A stretch of 33,227 nt of DNA from Bacteroidia bacterium (GTDB lineage Bacteria; Bacteroidota; Bacteroidia; JAIBAJ01), in assembly GCA_019695265.1 (NCBI GenBank), contig JAIBAJ010000028.1, positions 1 through 33,227 of the forward strand, written 5' to 3'. Below, piece by piece: positions 5,542 through 16,229 of the stretch. Under the pieces are notes generated by a model. The model saw only the letters and a list, made by a program, of their open reading frames with translations, was not told where the DNA came from and did no database searches. Made by a program: the position numbers and the translations under genes. Position 1 is the first letter of the stretch, and each line of letters opens with the position of its first letter.

Positions 5542-5910
5542 ATGCCTGTTAAAGAAAAAGAATTAGAGAAGGTTTATTTTGGTATTGGAGAAGTAGCCGA
5601 AATGTTAAAGGTTAATCCATCCTTAATTCGTTTTTGGGAAAAGCAATTTCCTGGAATCACACCTACCAAGAATAAGAAAGGTGATCGGTTGTTTACCAAA
5701 AAGGAGATTGAGAAGCTGAAGGAAATACACAAATTAGTAAAGGATAAGGGGTTTAAATTAGCAGGAGCCAAAAAGCAATTGAGGACCAAGGAGAATTTGG
5801 CGGAGGAGCTGGTTGCGGATAAGGAAGTGCTTTCTTCATCAGTACCAGAGGCTATTGCGTTTTTGACCGAAGCCAGGCGAAAATTATTGGAGTTGAAAGA
5901 AAGTTTGTAG
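5542..5910 (+). CDS. MerR-type transcriptional regulator
   Basis: The 122-residue protein has a MerR winged helix-turn-helix at about residues 8-75: YFGIGEVAEMLKVNPSLIRFWEKQFPG, then the wing and TKKEIEKLKEIHKLVKDKG. The remainder is a short basic and helical tail (about 75-122) ending in a coiled-coil-like stretch. It has no cysteine cluster or recognisable ligand domain, so no metal- or drug-sensing role can be claimed. Small MerR-like proteins of this form are common in Bacteroidota. The recombinase gene starts 22 bp downstream, suggesting one transcript. Confidence 0.9.
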   Translation: MPVKEKELEKVYFGIGEVAEMLKVNPSLIRFWEKQFPGITPTKNKKGDRLFTKKEIEKLKEIHKLVKDKGFKLAGAKKQLRTKENLAEELVADKEVLSSSVPEAIAFLTEARRKLLELKESL

Positions 5911-5932: not shown

Positions 5933-6823
5933 ATGGATGCAATTCGGCAATTTAAAATGTATGGGGAATCGGAAAAGCGATATTCGGCCCATACTATGAT
6001 AGCCTATTTAAATGATATAGAGCAATTTTTTACCTATTTGAATAATCCGGAAGCTGAAGGGATTGGTCGAATTGAGTTAGACGATATTCGAGATTGGGCG
6101 CTTTCGTTAATGGATGATGGTTTAGATGCAAGAAGTGTGAATAGAAAGGTAAGTTCGTTGAGGACCTTTTTTGCTTATTTTCAAAAGATTGGGATTTTGA
6201 GGGCGAATCCTTGTAAAGGTTTTAGGAGTTTGAAGACGGACAAAAAATTACCTGAATTTGTAAGTGAGACTTCTGTTGAACAATTGTTTCATGGAATTCG
6301 ATTTCCGGATGGATGGGAGGGAGAACGAGATAAAATGATTTTAGACATGCTCTACCAAACAGGAATGCGTAGATCGGAATTGATAGGATTGGAAATAAAT
6401 AGGATTGATTTCCAAAAGGGTGAATTAAAAGTTTTGGGTAAGCGAAACAAAGAACGAATAATTCCAGTTTCAAATAATACGATTGCAATGATGAGGAAGT
6501 ACCTTGAAAAAACACGAAATAAGTTTAGTGGCACCGAGCCTGAGTATTGGATCGTGGATGATAAGGGGTTTAAAGTTTCTGAAAAATTTGTTTATGATAA
6601 GGTAAAGTTCTACCTTCGACTTGTAACTACCAATTCAAAGGTGTCACCACATACGTTAAGGCATACCTTCGCTACTCATTTATTGAATCAAGGAGCCGAT
6701 ATTAATGCAGTGAAGGAGTTATTAGGTCATACAAGTTTGGCAGCTACACAGGTTTACACACATAATACGATTGAGAAATTAAAAAACAGTTATAAATCAG
6801 CCCATCCTAGGGCAAAAGAATAA
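5933..6823 (+). CDS. xerC: Tyrosine recombinase, XerC/XerD type
   Basis: The 296-residue protein is a full-length tyrosine recombinase of the Xer type, which resolves chromosome dimers at dif. It has an N-terminal SAM-like core-binding domain (about 1-95) and a catalytic domain. The residues are all present: Arg146 in GMRRSEL, Lys170 in VLGKRNKER, His240 and Arg243 in HTLRH, His266 in LLGHTSL, and the nucleophile Tyr275 in VYTH. It is followed 43 bp later by the hibernation factor gene. From memory, a recombinase next to raiA is a common Bacteroidota arrangement. That context argues for a chromosomal housekeeping enzyme rather than a phage or island integrase. I cannot tell XerC from XerD by sequence alone. 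Confidence 0.9.
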   Translation: MDAIRQFKMYGESEKRYSAHTMIAYLNDIEQFFTYLNNPEAEGIGRIELDDIRDWALSLMDDGLDARSVNRKVSSLRTFFAYFQKIGILRANPCKGFRSLKTDKKLPEFVSETSVEQLFHGIRFPDGWEGERDKMILDMLYQTGMRRSELIGLEINRIDFQKGELKVLGKRNKERIIPVSNNTIAMMRKYLEKTRNKFSGTEPEYWIVDDKGFKVSEKFVYDKVKFYLRLVTTNSKVSPHTLRHTFATHLLNQGADINAVKELLGHTSLAATQVYTHNTIEKLKNSYKSAHPRAKE

Positions 6824-6852: not shown

Positions 6853-6858
6853 AGGAGG
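6853..6858 (+). promoter_or_regulatory. Strong Shine-Dalgarno sequence of the HPF gene
   Basis: AGGAGG lies eight bases before the ATG at 6867. It is the only strong ribosome-binding sequence I found before any gene in this window; Bacteroidota genes usually lack one. See the finding on raiA. Confidence 0.8.
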
Positions 6859-6866
6859 ATAAAACG

Positions 6867-7166
6867 ATGAACGTTAAAATTCAATCCATTCATTTTGATG
6901 CTGATCACAAATTAATTGATTTTGTGCAGGATCGAGTAGGTAAGTTAGGTCATTATTATACCGAAATATTAGGCAGCGAAGTTTATTTGCGACTTGATAA
7001 AAGTTCAACCAATGATAATAAAATTGCAGAGATACGTTTGAATGTTCCGGGACAGGAAATGTTTGCAAAAAGACAGTGTAAAACCTTTGAAGAGGCTACT
7101 GATGTAGCTGTAGAAGCATTGCGCAATCAAATTAAAAAGCATAAGGAAAAGATTCAAAAAGCCTAA
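6867..7166 (+). CDS. raiA: Ribosome hibernation promoting factor, short HPF/YfiA type
   Basis: The 99-residue protein is the short form of HPF/YfiA, which binds the decoding region of the small ribosomal subunit in stationary phase and silences ribosomes. The beta-alpha-beta-beta-beta-alpha pattern is visible: NVKIQSIHFDADHKLIDFVQDRVGKL, then KIAEIRLNVPG and CKTFEEATDVAVEALRNQIKKHKEK. It lacks the C-terminal dimerisation domain of long HPF. An exact AGGAGG precedes the start, which is unusual for this phylum. A rho-independent terminator follows about 20 bp after the stop. Confidence 0.94.
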   Translation: MNVKIQSIHFDADHKLIDFVQDRVGKLGHYYTEILGSEVYLRLDKSSTNDNKIAEIRLNVPGQEMFAKRQCKTFEEATDVAVEALRNQIKKHKEKIQKA

Positions 7167-7183
7167 TTTTTAAATCTTTTTCA

Positions 7184-7220
7184 AGGGAGGCGACCAAAGG
7201 TCGCCTTTCTTTTTTTTCTT
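7184..7220 (+). terminator. Terminator after raiA
   Basis: AGGCGACC (7188-7195) and GGTCGCCT (7199-7206) form an 8-bp stem with a 3-nt loop, extended by weak pairs. A long T-rich run follows. It separates the Hpt-to-raiA run from rpmH. Confidence 0.85.
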
Positions 7221-7712: not shown

Positions 7713-10700
7713 TTACAAAGTGATTTTGAAATTTTGAGATTTACCAGTATTGCTTATTTCAATTAAATAAATTCCTGATGAACATTGATTAAATTGAAAT
7801 GTTTGGAACGGGCTTCCATCAGAAGTAATGAAATATTCTACGATTATTCTTCCGGTTAGATCCATTAGTTTGATTGTGTTTTTACCTTCCGGTAAATTAA
7901 ATATTCCAAGTTCAGCTTTATTTCCTGTATTAGTTACCAAAATAGGTTTTGATTCGGCTTGGAAGTATACAGGTGCCAGGTGGCTGTATGTAAAGCTGCC
8001 GTCTAAATCCGTTTGCTTTAATCGATAATAGGAAGTTCCGGCATATGGATTTTTATCTAAAAGTTGATAGGATTTATTGGAATTTGAATAGACAGATCCT
8101 TTTACAATACCTACTTCTTCGTATGAATTACCATCCATCGTTTTTTCAATTGTAAAATAGTCATTGTTAATTTCACTGGCTGTAATCCAATCCAGTTGAA
8201 CCAGGTTATTTAAAGCTTTAGCAGAAAAGGAAAGTAATTCAATTGGAAGAGGATTAGCTTCGCCTTCGCTGCCTAATGCGAATGGGCTAAAATTTGAAAC
8301 CGTGGTATAGGTACGGATGGTTCCTGTTTGGGTTGTACCGGAGGTGTTTCCATTTCCAAGGTTTTCCCAATAGGAGCCGTTGTAATGAGCTACTTTTAAG
8401 GTGGAAAGATTAGAAACAAATCCGCTGCTGTAGTTTTTCCAATTTAAAGTAACATATACCGATGAGGAACCTGTTGTTCTGGCTAAGTCCCAAAACTCAT
8501 TGTCGCTAAGATAAATCATAGGGCTTAATGAATAGGCAGGGTCGCTGTAATTGATAGGGTAGGAGAGTGCCGGATTGGTTGGGAAGTATTCGGCTGTAAA
8601 TACATCGGTTGTTTGGGTAGGAGCTGATATTTCAATCGTTCTGCAAATTGAACCTTTACCAACCGGGAAAACAAAAGCATCGTTACCGGTTTTTCTGCAT
8701 GGACCATTTATAAAGCTTTCATCAGGAAAGGCAGTTAAGGTAGCTGTTGCATTATCATCAATATTGATCAATTTGGTAGAAGTGGTAACAATTTGACCGG
8801 TATTAAAAGTTAAATCACCGGTGATGGTTACCGATTGATCCAGGCTGACTTGCAGACTTGGGCTGGATTTTTCAACATAAAGGTTTAGGATTTGAGCGGG
8901 TAATCCTGTACCGGCATTTTGGTTGGAACTTCCTACAAAACCATAACTACTGCCAGTTGCAAAAGTCCTTGTGGTAGTTTGCACATTTCCTGAATTTCCG
9001 GATGCGTTAATACCATTGACGTGGGCATATTTTAAGGTGGCCCCTGCATTAACTTTAAAGTTTCCAGTTCCAGAAACGATATCTGTGGCGTCCAATTGAA
9101 GGATGGCCGGTGAATTTACATTGAGAGTACCTGTAATTTGGAAACTTGCCGCTGCATTTACATTGTGCCGCAGAACACCGGCATTGGAATTGGCATTGAT
9201 TTCAATGTTATAATAATTAACGGTACTTGCGCCATTGTTAAAGGTGCCTCGAATTAATTGGGTTGACCCGCTGGTTACCGTACCATAATATTCAATTGTT
9301 CCATTTGTAAGTACATAAGGAGTAGAAATACCCGCTAATTCAGGTAAGGTTGTAAAACTTGCTTTTCCAATTCGTAACAAGGAACTTCCCGACATATACA
9401 GACCGGCATTTCCGGTTACACCATTGTTTCCGATATCAAAAATGGTACTACCGCTTATTTCCAGGTTATTGTTTATGACAAGGGCAGAACTCACGGTTTT
9501 GTATCCTCCGCCTGAACTTGTGCCGGAAATCAAAATGTTGTAATATGTTTTTCCTCCTTTGAGAGTCTGAAGTGTGCTAGAACTGGAACTTGTGCCATTT
9601 AATTCAATAACTCCACCGGTTAGCGTATAAGTGCCGGTTAATCTTGGATATTGTGTACTGGCACTAACAGATGATATTTGATACAAACCGGAGGCGGTGT
9701 TTAAAGTTCCCATGGTTAAGTTTCCGGTTCCATCAAAAAAGGATGAACTACCACCTTCTAACAAGGTGCCTTTTTTGATTTCCAATGTACCCGGCGTATT
9801 AATTACTCGTGAAGAGGTATTGACGGATAAGGTTGAACTATTGCTAGTTAGTTCCACCAATACTTTACCTGTAATGGTTGTTGGCAATCCATCTCCGGTG
9901 TATTGGTTGGTAGTTCCAACATAATGGTAAATTGCTCCGGCATTATAAGTTCTGGAATCCAATTGAACATTACCTGATAAGGTGGTTCCACTTCGTATTG
10001 CACCGGTAGTTTCTAACGATGAAATTTTGATGGTGCCACCCGATTGAACATCGAATGAGGTGGTAGCAGAAGAAGTTGTTTCAACAAGGTTTAATGCAGT
10101 TCCGGATGCATAATTAAAGTCCAATATTCCACCATTTTCTATGGTTAAATTAGATTGGTCAGCAAAGGGCCAGTTGCGATTGATGATTTGAACATAAGCG
10201 CCTGATTTTACAAAAAAGCGGTATCTCAACATATCGTTTGTTGCATTAACTGAAAGGTCTACTGTTTGGGTAGTTGTACCTGTGAAGTTGAAACTAGTAT
10301 TGGTGTATCCTGAAGAATTAGAATTGACCATATAGCTTCCGGAAGCCTTATACAAATTTCCTTTTAAATTAACCGTTGTAGCTACAGCTCCGCTGGAAGT
10401 ATTTTGAATGTTAAAGAATCCTGAGTTTATGGTCATATTTCCTAAAACGGTTAGTGTTAGGCTATTCCCTGCACTGCTTGAACCATAGGTATGAACTCTT
10501 AAATCTCCGGACCCGTTTTTAACTAAATTACCATTAACATTCCAAATAAATGCCCCGGCGCCGCTTTGACCTTGTACGTTTCCGGTTCCACTTACAAGTA
10601 AGTCGCCTCCTATAGTCAAGGTATTTGAATTTCCATTGTATAAGGTAATATTGTAACTTGAATTGTTGATAAGATTTAATTCTCCGTGTGTTAGAAATAC

Positions 10701-13700
10701 ATCAACATTGGGTGGGAAAATACCTGTCCAGTTGCCCGTAATACTGCTGGATCCCAATTCAATTTTTAATTTTCCAAAGCAAGCATTGTTTCCATTATAA
10801 CTGGTAGTAGAAATCGGGCAAGTAGTTCCTGAGAAAAAGTATTGACTGTTGTCCCAATCAGTGATATAGAACTGAGAATTTTCACCGAAGACTTCAGATC
10901 CATTCCATATTCCGGTAGTAGAATTGTTGGGAAGATAGCTGTCAATTTCAACTGTTGCTCCATTTTCTACTGTAAAAGTGGAGGTGGAACTTCTAAGAAA
11001 GGTTGTTGAATAGTAACCTGTTATATACATAGTGCTACCATTTCTAATGATTAAGTTTGAACTGCCAAGCATTTCAAATCTTCCTTCCATGTAGATTTCA
11101 CCTTTGGTTAATTCAAGGGTAGAACCTGAAGAAAGTACCAATCCGGTGCTTGAGTTTCCGGAGAAAACGATGCCTGATGATGAAGGAAAATCAATTAGGA
11201 TATTGTTATAGGTACCACCATTGGCAACATCTACATAAGAGCCGCTGCAGATGTATATTTTATTTGGTTTAGTACTTAATGCTTCGGGCGATTCTGTAGC
11301 ACTGGACCCCGTTACATCCTGCCATGAACCACTAACCATTTTCTGCCAGGGTCTAATTCCTGAAATAGCAGTAGTAGAACCAAAATAAATGGTGCCGGTA
11401 CTACCTAAACTTGGATTGGTTCTATAATCACCATTGGAAAAGGTAAGCGTTGTTACTGTAAAACTATTGCTATTTCCTGTGGGAGTTAAAGAGCCGCTTG
11501 TTGCAGAAAGATAAAAAGGGCCTCCTGCGGCAGTATGTGTTACTGAAAATGTAGAAAGTCCGGATGTAGCATTAACTGAAAGTGGTGAGCCTGTCATTGT
11601 GCCGGTCGAAGTCAGCGAGATAGAAGAAGAATAATCTAAGTCTCTGTTTCCATTAATGTCTACAGCTTCAACGGATGGACTTGGTGTCATAGCCGAATTG
11701 ATAGACACATTGGACGGTTGTTGATAGAAACTCAATTTGGTGGCCGTTACAATTACCCTGTTGCGATTTCCTGTTGTTTCACTTGAAACTGTGCTAAAAT
11801 TGGTAAATCCGGAAGAGAAGGAGGATGCACTAGTTACATCTGCAGATGTAATACTAAATCCGAATTGAGCATTATCGGTTACCGTGTTATTAAAACTAAC
11901 TTTAACGGTAATTATTCGGCTGGTTGTATAACTTGGAGATGTAACAGTGCTGCCTGATAAGCCGGAAAATGTTACAGTTGAACCTGAAACAGCTTGTTCA
12001 GCAATTTCAGTTGATCCATTGTATAAGGCTATTCTTTTGATAAATGAACTATGGGTTAAATTCAAAGTTACACTTGCCATGGTTGTTCCTTGACCATCTC
12101 CATCGTCTACTCCGCCGCCATCTCTAATTCTGAATTGCATTACATCTAAACTAGAGGTTGTTAGGTCGGACTCCTGGTAGCTTAAATAATTGATATTTTG
12201 AGGAGTGGTGAAGGCAGTGTTAAAATCTATAGTGGAATTATTGGCATAAGAGCCGGTACCACTAATGGTAAAATCATAAGTGCCTTCGTTAGCATCGTTG
12301 TTAGAGATACTAATGGTGGCGGTTTGGGTATTAAGGGTTGTTGGATTATAGGTTACTTCAAATATGAGGGATCCGGCAGGTCCACTAATGGTAGAAGCTG
12401 AAGGTTGCAGGCTTACCGTAAATTGGCTCGAACCTGAAATGGAAACCAGAGGACTGCCGGACAAGATAACATTTTGATGCCCTATATTTTTTATTGTAAA
12501 TTGTCTTGTTAATGAAGAACCCACAGTAACATTGCCAAAGGATGTATGATCAGCAGTTGAAGGAGTATTATCTCCGTCAACGATTTCAGTTGAGTTTCCT
12601 TCCACTCGTATTTCCGGTGTTTGAATGGTTTGAGTATTTCCGGTAGCTGTTCCACTTTCAATTCCATCGGTCGTTACATTGCTTGCAGCGCTAATTGCAA
12701 TGGCTATGGTGCGATTGTCGACAGCTGAATTCGAAACATCTGCTATTAATAAGTAATTCGAAGTGCTTGAAATATTTTCTGAAAGTCCGGTAAAGCTTAT
12801 TGGATTGGCAAGTGTTGCCACTGTTCCTAATATGGCATCTCCACCATTGTATGTTCCACTGTTGTCAGCGTCTTTTACTAATCTAAAGTTGCTAATATCG
12901 CTTGATGTAGCAGTACCGGAGGTTGCAAGGGATACGCCTGTAAATGTAACTGCAGCTGACGGGGTTAAGGAAAATCCAAACAGTACATTATTGGTGGTGT
13001 TATTTAAGATTGCTCCTGCGGCAGGGGAGCCTGTATTGGCAATAGAAACTGTTGCAGCATTAGAAACTAATACATTTCCGGTAAATGTAAAATCATTAAT
13101 ACTTAACGTGGTTGTTGTGGCAGCCAATCCATAAGCATAATAGCGGAAAGTAATTGCAGAAGTAATATTTTGGTATGCAGATCCGGAAAGGGAAATAGTT
13201 GCTCCTGTAGTACTAGCGGAACCAATGTTTGAAGAGTATCCATCCAGGCTTGATCTCAAGGCAACTGTCGATGAACCTGATGAAACCTGACCAGTATAGG
13301 TAAAGCTTGTAAAATCAATTTCATAGCCTGAAACCGGCGTTAAAGTAAATTCAAAATATTTGGTTAAATCGATAGTTCCAGAAGTGCTCCAGTTGGTGGC
13401 ATTATACCTGTCATTGGCACTATTGCCATTAATACCGGCACTCCTTCCGATTCCTGAAACTACTAAATTGGCATCATAAGAATCTCCGGATGTCCATGGG
13501 TTGGAAAGTCCCGGATTAGTTCCGGTAATTGGATTAGTCCAAATGGTAACCGGCACCAGTACAACCGTTAATGTACCATTAACCAGGGTTAAATTGTAAT
13601 TGGTTGCTGAACCTCCTGTCAAGGTAATAGGATAATTTCCGGCCACAGAGCTCGTGGTTGCCGTGGTAGAAGCAGTTGGTGCAGTAATGGATGCTACCGT

Positions 13701-16229
13701 TTCTGAATTAACAAATCCACTGTATGTTATTGTCAAGGTAGGATTTGTACTACCTTGGTTTTTAGTAAGGTTATCCGCCGTGCAGGTCAGCGATACTTTA
13801 GTAATATCGGCAGACAATCCTACCGGCGCTGTTAATGAATAATTGGATGCATCGGCACCACTTAAGGTGGTATTATAACTTACACTGATTCCGGTTCCTG
13901 CATTGGCTTGGGCGAAGGTTCCTGCTCCGGAAGCATTAACCACGTCTCCACTGATAACCCCAACTAATGTGCCACCTGTAATAGTAGCTGCAGTTGATCC
14001 ATTATAAGCTCTTGAATTGGCAGATGCTCCGGTGAGTGTTAAACTTGCAACTGTAATATTTCCTGTTAAACCACTTGGTTGGGAAAGTGTATATTTTCCT
14101 GCATCTGCACCGGTAAGGGTAAACCCTGTTGCTGTTATTGGTTTAGAAGTTCCAACTGTTTTTGTAGCAAAAGAATAGGAGGGAGTTCCACTAAGATTCA
14201 CCACATCGGATCCTACGATTCCTACCAGACTTGGAGAGCCGGAAACACTTGCTGTTAGCGCTGCGTCGTATGTTTTATTGGACCCTGTTAATCCGGAAAT
14301 GGTTAAGTTTTTAGGATTAACGGTTAAGGTTTGAGTTTGATTGCTTGCAGCATTCCAATCCGAATTTCCAGATTGCGATGCTGTAATGGTGGTGGTTCCC
14401 GGTCCAACAATGGTTACTGTACTTCCGGATATGGTTGCCACCCCTGTATTTGAACTGGAATAAGTTACTCCCAATCCTGAACTTGCACTTGCAGTTAAAG
14501 AATAAGAACTTGCCCCATAGGTTTGTGTGCTTGTTGAACTTAAACCGGTTATTGTTTGGTTTCCGGGGTTGATGGTAAAGTTGAGTGTTGCCGCAGCGCT
14601 GGTTCCGGAACCATTGGTTGCTGTTACCGTTACGGAAGAGGATCCGGCTGATGTCGGGGTTCCTGAAATTACCCCGCTTCCGGTATTTAAACTTAATCCT
14701 GCAGGTAAGCTACCACTGGCAATTGCATAACTGGTTGGACTATTCGTAGCTGATATAGTATAGCTGAAAGCTGTTCCTACAGTTCCGGTTGGAGATCCAC
14801 CGCTTACAACAGGTAAGGTTGGCGTTATTATAGTTTGAGTTCCTCCGGCTGAACTGGAGCCGGTAACAGAACCGGAAGCAATAGTTACATTTGAATTGGT
14901 GATGGCATTTATGGAAATCGTATTACCACCGCCTGAAGATCCGGATGCAATATCTCCAGTGATAAACAGGTAACCTGTGGTTCCACCACTTATGCTTTGA
15001 CTTGAAAAGCTTGGAAAGGTTTTGGAGCCCGCACTTCCGGGACTTGTTAAGGTGCTTAGGGTTGCATCACCTCCGTCCAAGGTGGCATCGGTAGAATACC
15101 GAACTTTAAGGTTGACTAAATCTGCAGCATCATAACCACCTGAGGTAGTGCAGGTTAGGCCTGTTAAATTGGCTGCTGCACCTGTTATGCTCAATTGAAA
15201 TTTTAGTAAAACATTGTTGGTAGAATTTTCAAGGATATTTCCCGACCCGATTTGTGTGCCATTGTCAGCTATGGTTACCGTAGTTGCATTCGCAGTTGAT
15301 CCATTTCCTGAAGATTCGGTGGCGTAATTATAGGCTTTGTCATAAGTGTACACCTTGTAATAATAGGTTGTTCCCGGATTAAGGCCGGAATTGGTAAACG
15401 AAGTACCGGTACCAAGATAAACAACCGTTCCTGTTAAACCACCTGTTCCATTGGTATAGGTATTCCCACTTGCATAAATTCCATTGGTATTGGGGTCATT
15501 GTCTGCATTTGGAGAACTGCTGTATCTCACAACCATATAACCGCCATTGTCTACACCACCTGACGCGGCAGTCCAGGAAATATCCAACGCTGTTGTAGGA
15601 TTGCTTGAATTCTGCGCTACTGTAACTGTTCCTGCCGAGTTTGGTGCAGCATTATCAACAGCTCCTGTGTACATAGTAAAATCATCAAAGAACATATCGC
15701 CCCCGCTTCCAAATTTTCTGGTTAAGAAAACACCGGCTATCACCGTATAACTATTGGCAGTTCTGGTATAGGTGACCTTTTCCCAGGTTGATGCGGAAGC
15801 TGGAACAGAATAAGAACCTGATAGATTTTCTGTCCCTGAAGTACCATTGCCCACTCCTCTTTGTTCATCCTGGGCATTGGTAGTGTTTGAAACCAATCTA
15901 TAAAATTGAAAGGTCACTTGTTGGGAAGTAATACTGGAAGTAATTAATGGAGTCCAAACTCTTCGACCGGTTGTAGAACTATTATTTACTTTTAAAGATT
16001 TACTGCCACTCCTAACGGTAGTTGTCTCATAAGAAATGGTTGTTGTGGAATTGTTCTTCGTCCAGGTGTTGGCCACTGCAGAAGTATTTGCATTGGTATT
16101 ATCCACTGTAGCCGAACCTTCCAAGCCTCCATCTAAACCAAGGAGGTTTTGAGCGTTTGAATTACTGATTGTTGCGCCTACTAGTAGTGTTAAGCAACAA
16201 ATGGTTTTTGAAATGTTTGGGTAGAACAT
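7713..16229 (-). CDS. Giant mosaic T9SS-secreted surface protein (type A sorting tail)
   Basis: The 2838-residue protein is predicted to be exported by Sec, then secreted or anchored outside the cell by the type IX system. A signal peptide spans residues 1-26. In order I see: an N-terminal beta-sandwich resembling a carbohydrate-binding module (about 27-192); a fibronectin-III-like domain (about 193-316); an unnamed domain (317-466) that recurs at 1058-1200; a putative Ig domain with SLPAGLSLNTGSGVISGTPT (469-555); an MBG/Ig-like segment (556-635); two YDG-type domains (about 636-728 and 728-810); a further MBG-like domain (810-893); an ASH-like choice-of-anchor D domain (1204-1326); a long region of short Ser/Thr/Gly/Asn-rich strands like a beta-helix (about 1590-2540); a fibronectin-III-like domain (from about 2660); and a T9SS type A tail (about 2763-2838). 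An adhesin or matrix role is inferred. No catalytic domain is recognised. The gene stands alone between a long terminator and a regulated-looking promoter. Confidence 0.93.
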   Translation of the reverse strand: MFYPNISKTICCLTLLVGATISNSNAQNLLGLDGGLEGSATVDNTNANTSAVANTWTKNNSTTTISYETTTVRSGSKSLKVNNSSTTGRRVWTPLITSSITSQQVTFQFYRLVSNTTNAQDEQRGVGNGTSGTENLSGSYSVPASASTWEKVTYTRTANSYTVIAGVFLTRKFGSGGDMFFDDFTMYTGAVDNAAPNSAGTVTVAQNSSNPTTALDISWTAASGGVDNGGYMVVRYSSSPNADNDPNTNGIYASGNTYTNGTGGLTGTVVYLGTGTSFTNSGLNPGTTYYYKVYTYDKAYNYATESSGNGSTANATTVTIADNGTQIGSGNILENSTNNVLLKFQLSITGAAANLTGLTCTTSGGYDAADLVNLKVRYSTDATLDGGDATLSTLTSPGSAGSKTFPSFSSQSISGGTTGYLFITGDIASGSSGGGNTISINAITNSNVTIASGSVTGSSSAGGTQTIITPTLPVVSGGSPTGTVGTAFSYTISATNSPTSYAIASGSLPAGLSLNTGSGVISGTPTSAGSSSVTVTATNGSGTSAAATLNFTINPGNQTITGLSSTSTQTYGASSYSLTASASSGLGVTYSSSNTGVATISGSTVTIVGPGTTTITASQSGNSDWNAASNQTQTLTVNPKNLTISGLTGSNKTYDAALTASVSGSPSLVGIVGSDVVNLSGTPSYSFATKTVGTSKPITATGFTLTGADAGKYTLSQPSGLTGNITVASLTLTGASANSRAYNGSTAATITGGTLVGVISGDVVNASGAGTFAQANAGTGISVSYNTTLSGADASNYSLTAPVGLSADITKVSLTCTADNLTKNQGSTNPTLTITYSGFVNSETVASITAPTASTTATTSSVAGNYPITLTGGSATNYNLTLVNGTLTVVLVPVTIWTNPITGTNPGLSNPWTSGDSYDANLVVSGIGRSAGINGNSANDRYNATNWSTSGTIDLTKYFEFTLTPVSGYEIDFTSFTYTGQVSSGSSTVALRSSLDGYSSNIGSASTTGATISLSGSAYQNITSAITFRYYAYGLAATTTTLSINDFTFTGNVLVSNAATVSIANTGSPAAGAILNNTTNNVLFGFSLTPSAAVTFTGVSLATSGTATSSDISNFRLVKDADNSGTYNGGDAILGTVATLANPISFTGLSENISSTSNYLLIADVSNSAVDNRTIAIAISAASNVTTDGIESGTATGNTQTIQTPEIRVEGNSTEIVDGDNTPSTADHTSFGNVTVGSSLTRQFTIKNIGHQNVILSGSPLVSISGSSQFTVSLQPSASTISGPAGSLIFEVTYNPTTLNTQTATISISNNDANEGTYDFTISGTGSYANNSTIDFNTAFTTPQNINYLSYQESDLTTSSLDVMQFRIRDGGGVDDGDGQGTTMASVTLNLTHSSFIKRIALYNGSTEIAEQAVSGSTVTFSGLSGSTVTSPSYTTSRIITVKVSFNNTVTDNAQFGFSITSADVTSASSFSSGFTNFSTVSSETTGNRNRVIVTATKLSFYQQPSNVSINSAMTPSPSVEAVDINGNRDLDYSSSISLTSTGTMTGSPLSVNATSGLSTFSVTHTAAGGPFYLSATSGSLTPTGNSNSFTVTTLTFSNGDYRTNPSLGSTGTIYFGSTTAISGIRPWQKMVSGSWQDVTGSSATESPEALSTKPNKIYICSGSYVDVANGGTYNNILIDFPSSSGIVFSGNSSTGLVLSSGSTLELTKGEIYMEGRFEMLGSSNLIIRNGSTMYITGYYSTTFLRSSTSTFTVENGATVEIDSYLPNNSTTGIWNGSEVFGENSQFYITDWDNSQYFFSGTTCPISTTSYNGNNACFGKLKIELGSSSITGNWTGIFPPNVDVFLTHGELNLINNSSYNITLYNGNSNTLTIGGDLLVSGTGNVQGQSGAGAFIWNVNGNLVKNGSGDLRVHTYGSSSAGNSLTLTVLGNMTINSGFFNIQNTSSGAVATTVNLKGNLYKASGSYMVNSNSSGYTNTSFNFTGTTTQTVDLSVNATNDMLRYRFFVKSGAYVQIINRNWPFADQSNLTIENGGILDFNYASGTALNLVETTSSATTSFDVQSGGTIKISSLETTGAIRSGTTLSGNVQLDSRTYNAGAIYHYVGTTNQYTGDGLPTTITGKVLVELTSNSSTLSVNTSSRVINTPGTLEIKKGTLLEGGSSSFFDGTGNLTMGTLNTASGLYQISSVSASTQYPRLTGTYTLTGGVIELNGTSSSSSTLQTLKGGKTYYNILISGTSSGGGYKTVSSALVINNNLEISGSTIFDIGNNGVTGNAGLYMSGSSLLRIGKASFTTLPELAGISTPYVLTNGTIEYYGTVTSGSTQLIRGTFNNGASTVNYYNIEINANSNAGVLRHNVNAAASFQITGTLNVNSPAILQLDATDIVSGTGNFKVNAGATLKYAHVNGINASGNSGNVQTTTRTFATGSSYGFVGSSNQNAGTGLPAQILNLYVEKSSPSLQVSLDQSVTITGDLTFNTGQIVTTSTKLINIDDNATATLTAFPDESFINGPCRKTGNDAFVFPVGKGSICRTIEISAPTQTTDVFTAEYFPTNPALSYPINYSDPAYSLSPMIYLSDNEFWDLARTTGSSSVYVTLNWKNYSSGFVSNLSTLKVAHYNGSYWENLGNGNTSGTTQTGTIRTYTTVSNFSPFALGSEGEANPLPIELLSFSAKALNNLVQLDWITASEINNDYFTIEKTMDGNSYEEVGIVKGSVYSNSNKSYQLLDKNPYAGTSYYRLKQTDLDGSFTYSHLAPVYFQAESKPILVTNTGNKAELGIFNLPEGKNTIKLMDLTGRIIVEYFITSDGSPFQTFQFNQCSSGIYLIEISNTGKSQNFKITL

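Follow-up and report, generated by a model that had tools for sequence, protein, structure and literature searches.

The gene raiA of a Bacteroidia bacterium, which encodes a short ribosome hibernation factor, is preceded by an AGGAGG motif that, judged by comparison across the class, is a Shine-Dalgarno (SD) sequence under selection and very probably a functional one. In this phylum, the 3' tail of the 16S rRNA is held by bS21, bS18, and bS6 (PMC9976891), and the retention of the raiA SD in many separate families in which ribosomes normally ignore SDs points to a dedicated translation switch. The sequences make a strong case for conservation; an interpretation of the raiA SD in terms of bS21 is plausible, but calls for correction.

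The raiA leader and its genomic setting

The window, i.e., the whole stretch of 33,227 nucleotides that was analysed, contains a gene series comprising HPT, an RluA-type pseudouridine synthase, a MerR-type regulator, an XerC-like recombinase, raiA, a terminator-like hairpin, and rpmH (Table 1). The raiA leader reads TTTCAGGAGGATAAAACG-ATG, with the start codon at 6867-6869, and the AGGAGG is located entirely inside the intergenic gap between xerC and raiA. The initial annotation had placed the motif eight bases before the ATG and had considered the other starts that it checked in the window devoid of a comparable site; both statements are borne out by the coordinates and by the energies given below.

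Table 1. Features of the window at and around the raiA start
Feature	Position	Strand	Basis
MerR-type regulator, occupying the position of rpsU in most relatives	5542..5910	+	PF13411, 63.6 bits
xerC-like tyrosine recombinase, immediately 5' of raiA, 43-nt gap	5933..6823	+	PF00589 and PF02899 above cut-off
SD AGGAGG of raiA	6853..6858	+	sequence; own canonical anti-SD; conserved in class-mates
Spacer ATAAAACG, 8 nt, A at -3 and -6	6859..6866	+	sequence
raiA, short HPF/YfiA-type ribosome hibernation factor, 99 aa	6867..7166	+	PF02482 and TIGR00741 above cut-off
Intrinsic-terminator-like hairpin and T run 3' of raiA	7183..7218	+	13 pairs, 7 G-C; consensus scan only

The raiA product has the S30AE domain (PF02482, 68.5 bits at a cut-off of 23.7; TIGR00741 HPF/YfiA, 45.1 bits at a cut-off of 40.9) and is without a long C-terminal domain, as is characteristic of the short HPF/YfiA type. 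For the xerC-like product, the top NCBIfam match is XerC with 298 bits, which is under the cut-off of 335 for this model. The adenines at both -3 and -6 of the raiA start are among those described as marks of efficient translation in Flavobacterium johnsoniae (PMC9976891). Folding of the raiA leader is no better than that of shuffled sequences (z 0.87), and, for this reason, no riboswitch-like element is claimed. A sigma-70 promoter scan gave matches equal to shuffles, with a consensus that is uninformative for this phylum, and an Rfam scan of the window returned nothing except three tRNAs. On the minus strand, the window also contains a 2838-aa ORF (7713-16229), which is probably a large secreted protein; the match of its end to the Por secretion C-terminal sorting domain is weak (24.2 bits, cut-off 27).

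The 3' end of the organism's own 16S rRNA reads ...GGAATACCTCCTTTTT (tail ...AUACCUCCUUUUU), with CCUCC present, and the anti-SD is thus canonical. Six bases of the raiA AGGAGG pair with the CCUCCU of this tail; pairing stops there, as GGAGG is followed by A and not by the U that could pair. SD energies were calculated as ViennaRNA duplexes between the -24 to -4 window of each start and the 8-nt core ACCUCCUU. With -10.3 kcal/mol, raiA ranks first among 18 starts of the window, followed by xerC with -6.4. The comparison was extended to an own-genome sample of 20 stretches of 20 kb each together with the window (ORFs of >=100 aa, first ATG; n=328 besides raiA), in which, as in the surveys of carrier stretches and of rplE, gene calling was crude (longest ORFs, first ATG). 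None of the 328 other ORFs reaches -10.3 and one reaches -9.5; at <= -7, SD windows (7/328) are even poorer than mock windows (12/323). This scarcity agrees with the depletion of SDs that has been published for Flavobacteriales (PMC9976891). The pattern AGGAGGN4-10ATG is not enriched in the own genome either (201 matches versus 208 for the reversed pattern), and none of the first 30 of the 201 matches is found at a plausible gene start.

Conservation and specificity of the raiA SD

Among 57 class-mates taken without selection, none of the retrieved genomes being closer than class, the raiA SD was present at <= -9 in 11. An enlarged set comprised, among the better-scoring matches listed, 152 raiA loci from 49 families, with carrier families sampled more heavily; here, the SD reached <= -9 in 61 loci and 15 families, versus one of 152 mock windows from the same leaders. 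Given the non-random, carrier-weighted composition of the enlarged set, 61/152 is not to be read as a population frequency, to which 11/57 comes nearer. Four rows (L108, L110, L114, and L115; divergent or without a start) had been removed prior to counting, and second raiA copies, together with L113 and L116, are outside the 152. The second copies themselves, present in seven genomes (L090, L100, L102, L106, L109, L111, and L112), are without an SD. Among 19 named loci, the threshold of -9 was reached by two, namely L038 from a Crocinitomicaceae MAG and L041 from a Bacteroidetes MAG; L042 and L043 have a weaker AAAGGAG at raiA, and the score of -7.2 obtained for L033 and L035 stems from xerC coding sequence.

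The SD is full or nearly full in five families (f21 13/14, f41 9/9, f42 11/12, f4 5/5, f61 4/4), mixed in others (f34 5/8, f38 3/6, f28 3/6), and missing, among the matches listed, from 34 of the 49. Hence, the conservation upstream of raiA that the initial annotation had asked for is found in whole families, and the absence from orthologous leaders, which it had held against its reading, applies to part of the class. An alignment of the f21 leaders centred on the motif shows the same GGAG in all 14 loci, including the exceptional one, which reads AGGAGA, while most upstream columns agree in just 5-11 of 14. From the excess over mock windows and the invariant core, we conclude that the SD is kept by selection. 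The spacer between GGAGG and ATG measures 4-9 nt in 61/61 SD-bearing loci, at distances to the upstream stop of 3-213 nt; since the motif is fixed in its distance to the start codon and not to the upstream stop, it has the hallmark of a translation signal rather than of a promoter, a terminator, or codons of xerC. In 56 of the 61 carriers, the base 3' of GGAGG is A, where U would extend the helix, which suggests that pairing is kept moderate. The anti-SD was canonical in all nine genomes with a readable 16S 3' end (16S found in 10 of 24 searched). A FastTree phylogeny of XerC and RaiA, which covers 149 of 171 loci, requires the SD label to change 21 times, with at least eight of the changes forced by starred branches; this implies repeated gains or losses, between which the tree does not discriminate.

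The specificity of the signal was surveyed in 20 kb around raiA of 20 carrier genomes (329 ORFs). By coordinates, raiA was expected in 18 of these stretches; it was called as an ORF in 15, three being lost, and all 15 have a strong SD. Among the 314 other ORFs, none is at <= -8 and one is at -7, and mock windows of the same ORFs gave three at -8. A search for AGGAGGN4-9ATG against a reversed control in 11 carrier genomes and one non-carrier revealed no clear excess, except in two f41 genomes (206 versus 173 and 76 versus 50). That the raiA motif arose by chance or is neutral is hardly credible: its lack in 34/49 families would suit such a reading, but it is opposed by 61/152 versus 1/152 in mock windows, by the invariant core within families, and by 15/15 versus 0/314 in the carrier stretches, so that its conservation excludes chance.

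An SD-bearing gene of a different kind is rplE. In the own genome it has a strong SD, GGGGAGGTAATTA, with -11.8 (L371 2209, G000:C78), and among 30 genomes (L373-L402) the rplE SD is at <= -9 in 25 and at <= -8 in 27. It adjoins the stop-start overlap of rplX and rplE and may be partly fixed by the C-terminal codons of rplX. The idea that raiA is the sole SD gene was dropped in view of these data, and, as the rplE SD is similarly strong, a strong SD need not imply control by bS21. For rpsR, an SD is absent in the own genome and in the sampled genomes of f21, f42, f61, f34, f4, f38, and f28, and present in f41, f50, f33, f15, f39, and one of two f11 genomes. Carrier genomes hold a tiny set of SDs, in which raiA is the lone gene found that does not encode a ribosomal protein.

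As may happen at rplE, the raiA SD could aid re-initiation on a distal cistron by ribosomes finishing the upstream gene, with no special part for bS21. In most loci raiA follows xerC after 10-80 nt, and rplE shows that an SD of like strength can accompany a stop-start overlap. We nevertheless regard re-initiation as unlikely, given that the presence of the raiA SD ignores the size of the gap (0/13 below 10 nt, 26/51 at 10-20, 16/36 at 20-40, 9/20 at 40-80, and 4/15 above 80 nt), that f21 retains the SD across gaps of 34-211 nt, and that the other ORFs of the same stretches (0/314) are without one. Re-initiation behind xerC fails to account for SDs kept over long gaps.

bS21, rpsU and the free 16S tail

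In F. johnsoniae, the 16S tail is sequestered, with Tyr54 of bS21 stacking on it, and ribosomes without bS21 are poor on SD-less mRNAs (PMC9976891). On this basis, the AGGAGG would let the raiA mRNA pair with the 16S tail that is normally held in the bS21-bS18-bS6 pocket of Bacteroidia; 30S subunits with a free tail, chiefly those without bS21, would then translate raiA best, and the HPF so made could put those same subunits into storage. We give an even chance to the proposal that raiA is translated best by free-tail subunits, above all by those lacking bS21, with the level of the hibernation factor increasing as incomplete subunits accumulate. The free-tail step has been demonstrated for other genes in another species, F. 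johnsoniae (PMC9976891), and the subsequent steps are extrapolated from there; that raiA responds to bS21 in this species and its relatives, and that such a response matters physiologically, is what we infer.

The expected size of the effect may be gauged from a tuf reporter in F. johnsoniae. An added AGGAGGU gave no gain in the wild type, but more than 2-fold in a bS21 deltaC strain, 70% in Y54A, and 40-70% in a depletion strain, while AGGA had virtually no effect (PMC9976891). By analogy, free-tail subunits should favour raiA modestly; the raiA SD is one pair shorter than the AGGAGGU of the reporter.

The own bS21 contains Tyr54. Among 128 genomes in which both proteins could be read, this residue is found in all 49 raiA-SD carriers, and none of the 10 genomes without it has an SD at raiA (Fisher p 0.013, with no correction for kinship). 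In place of Tyr54, bS21 has Arg in G039, G026, and G047, His in G021, G058, G188, G043, and G065, Phe in G022, and Leu in G044; G043 (L154), with His, carries a 13-nt perfect rpsU SD. G041 (L155, G041:C58) has two bS21 genes 1.1 kb apart, alike in protein and leader.

In at least 102/152 loci, rpsU shares the strand of raiA and precedes it by 1.1-1.5 kb, in the order rpsU-xerC-raiA. Such a cluster would encode the protein that hides the anti-SD along with an mRNA that is read best once the anti-SD is exposed. The own genome breaks this order, its rpsU being located on contig C109 (L001, G000:C109) and a MerR gene preceding xerC. Linkage of rpsU barely predicts the raiA SD, with at least 46/61 carriers versus at least 56/91 non-carriers being linked. 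Both the gene order and the presence of Tyr54 in all 49 carriers are compatible with the bS21 idea.

The own rpsU leader, AATTTAAATCAGACG, is without an SD, and so is rpsU in 39 of the 49 raiA-SD genomes. An rpsU SD occurs in 10/49 carriers versus 10/79 non-carriers, nine of the ten double carriers belonging to f41; a negative association between the two SDs, which had been considered, was rejected on these counts, the two being independent. The initial annotation had proposed that HPF is also made preferentially by ribosomes lacking bS21. The SD on which this was founded is real and conserved, with Tyr54 in every carrier examined for it and with raiA near rpsU in most loci; the word "also", in contrast, is wrong for this genome and for most carriers, and, given their SD-less rpsU, the proposal there becomes one of HPF being made instead of bS21. 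In its wider form, the idea would be that bS21-less ribosomes of many Bacteroidia act in regulation chiefly through the hibernation factor and not through bS21, so that incomplete 30S subunits arrange for their own storage; we put this forward as tentative and somewhat doubtful.

Several observations speak against a role of bS21, among them the rplE SD, the poor predictive value of rpsU linkage, and the absence of the raiA SD from 34/49 families. Moreover, most carriers, like the own genome, are without an SD at rpsU, the single target for which control by bS21 is proven, and pairing at raiA, mostly 6-9 bp and with A after GGAGG in 56/61, is weaker than that of the rpsU type, in which the extended SD forms a helix of 9-13 bp, stated by the authors as needed (PMC9976891). 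Perfect pairing runs at raiA comprise 5-9 nt in 60/61 carriers and 11 in one, with at least 9 in 26/61. With 6 bp, the site in the window lies outside the extended-SD class (9-13 bp, below -13 kcal/mol), our energies stemming from another program and an 8-nt tail.

A further possibility is that, in starvation, with initiator tRNA or factors in short supply, the SD keeps initiation on raiA by ordinary ribosomes robust, which would be a thermodynamic gain and not a bS21 sensor. From such an arrangement a starvation factor would profit, and SD-bearing rpsU mRNA gave near-maximal initiation complexes at the lowest fMet-tRNA tested, also with wild-type ribosomes (PMC9976891). However, these data concern the extended rpsU SD and not raiA, and wild-type ribosomes hide their anti-SD, for which reason we assign a low probability to this explanation. 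Sensing of the free tail via the state of bS18 or bS6 in place of bS21 is very unlikely. In its favour is the strong SD of rpsR, the gene for bS18, in some families, including the raiA-SD families f41, f50, and f33; against this stands the SD-less rpsR of the own genome and of the sampled members of f21, f42, f61, f34, f4, f38, and f28, and bS18-linked sensing is less likely where rpsR is without an SD.

Significance and relation to known systems

Specialised ribosomes in Bacteroidia have so far been linked to a single gene, rpsU. A conserved SD on a hibernation factor gene would extend the idea of specialised ribosomes to ribosome storage, would give the free anti-SD a use in lineages whose rpsU is without an SD, and would tie the completeness of 30S subunits to dormancy, in a way amenable to experiment, across a large class of bacteria. 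A connection between raiA or HPF and an SD in Bacteroidota was not found in the open-licence literature, supplements aside. We know of no SD-based control via anti-SD access for the short HPF/YfiA family, to which the raiA product is alike in its size of 99 aa and in its PF02482 and TIGR00741 matches above cut-off.

The closest precedent is the autoregulation of bS21 through the extended SD of rpsU in F. johnsoniae (McNutt et al. 2023, PMC9976891). The screen described there was genome-wide for Flavobacteriales and covered ribosomal protein genes for other orders, and its main text, supplements aside, makes no mention of raiA or hpf. In both systems, a gene of the translation apparatus has a strong SD although the anti-SD is hidden in the phylum, and the pocket and the anti-SD core are the same. 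They differ in that the target of the SD at raiA is a hibernation factor, in that rpsU of the same genome is usually without an SD, and in that the effect of bS21, proven for rpsU, would be a putative one for raiA. SDs of moderate strength have also been reported for some Bacteroidia at ribosomal protein genes that include rpsR and rplE (Jha et al. 2021, via PMC9976891). These are similar to the raiA SD in pairing strength, and that of rplE was confirmed here (25/30 at <= -9); in contrast to them, raiA is no ribosomal protein gene, and its SD is situated in an intergenic leader and not at a stop-start overlap.
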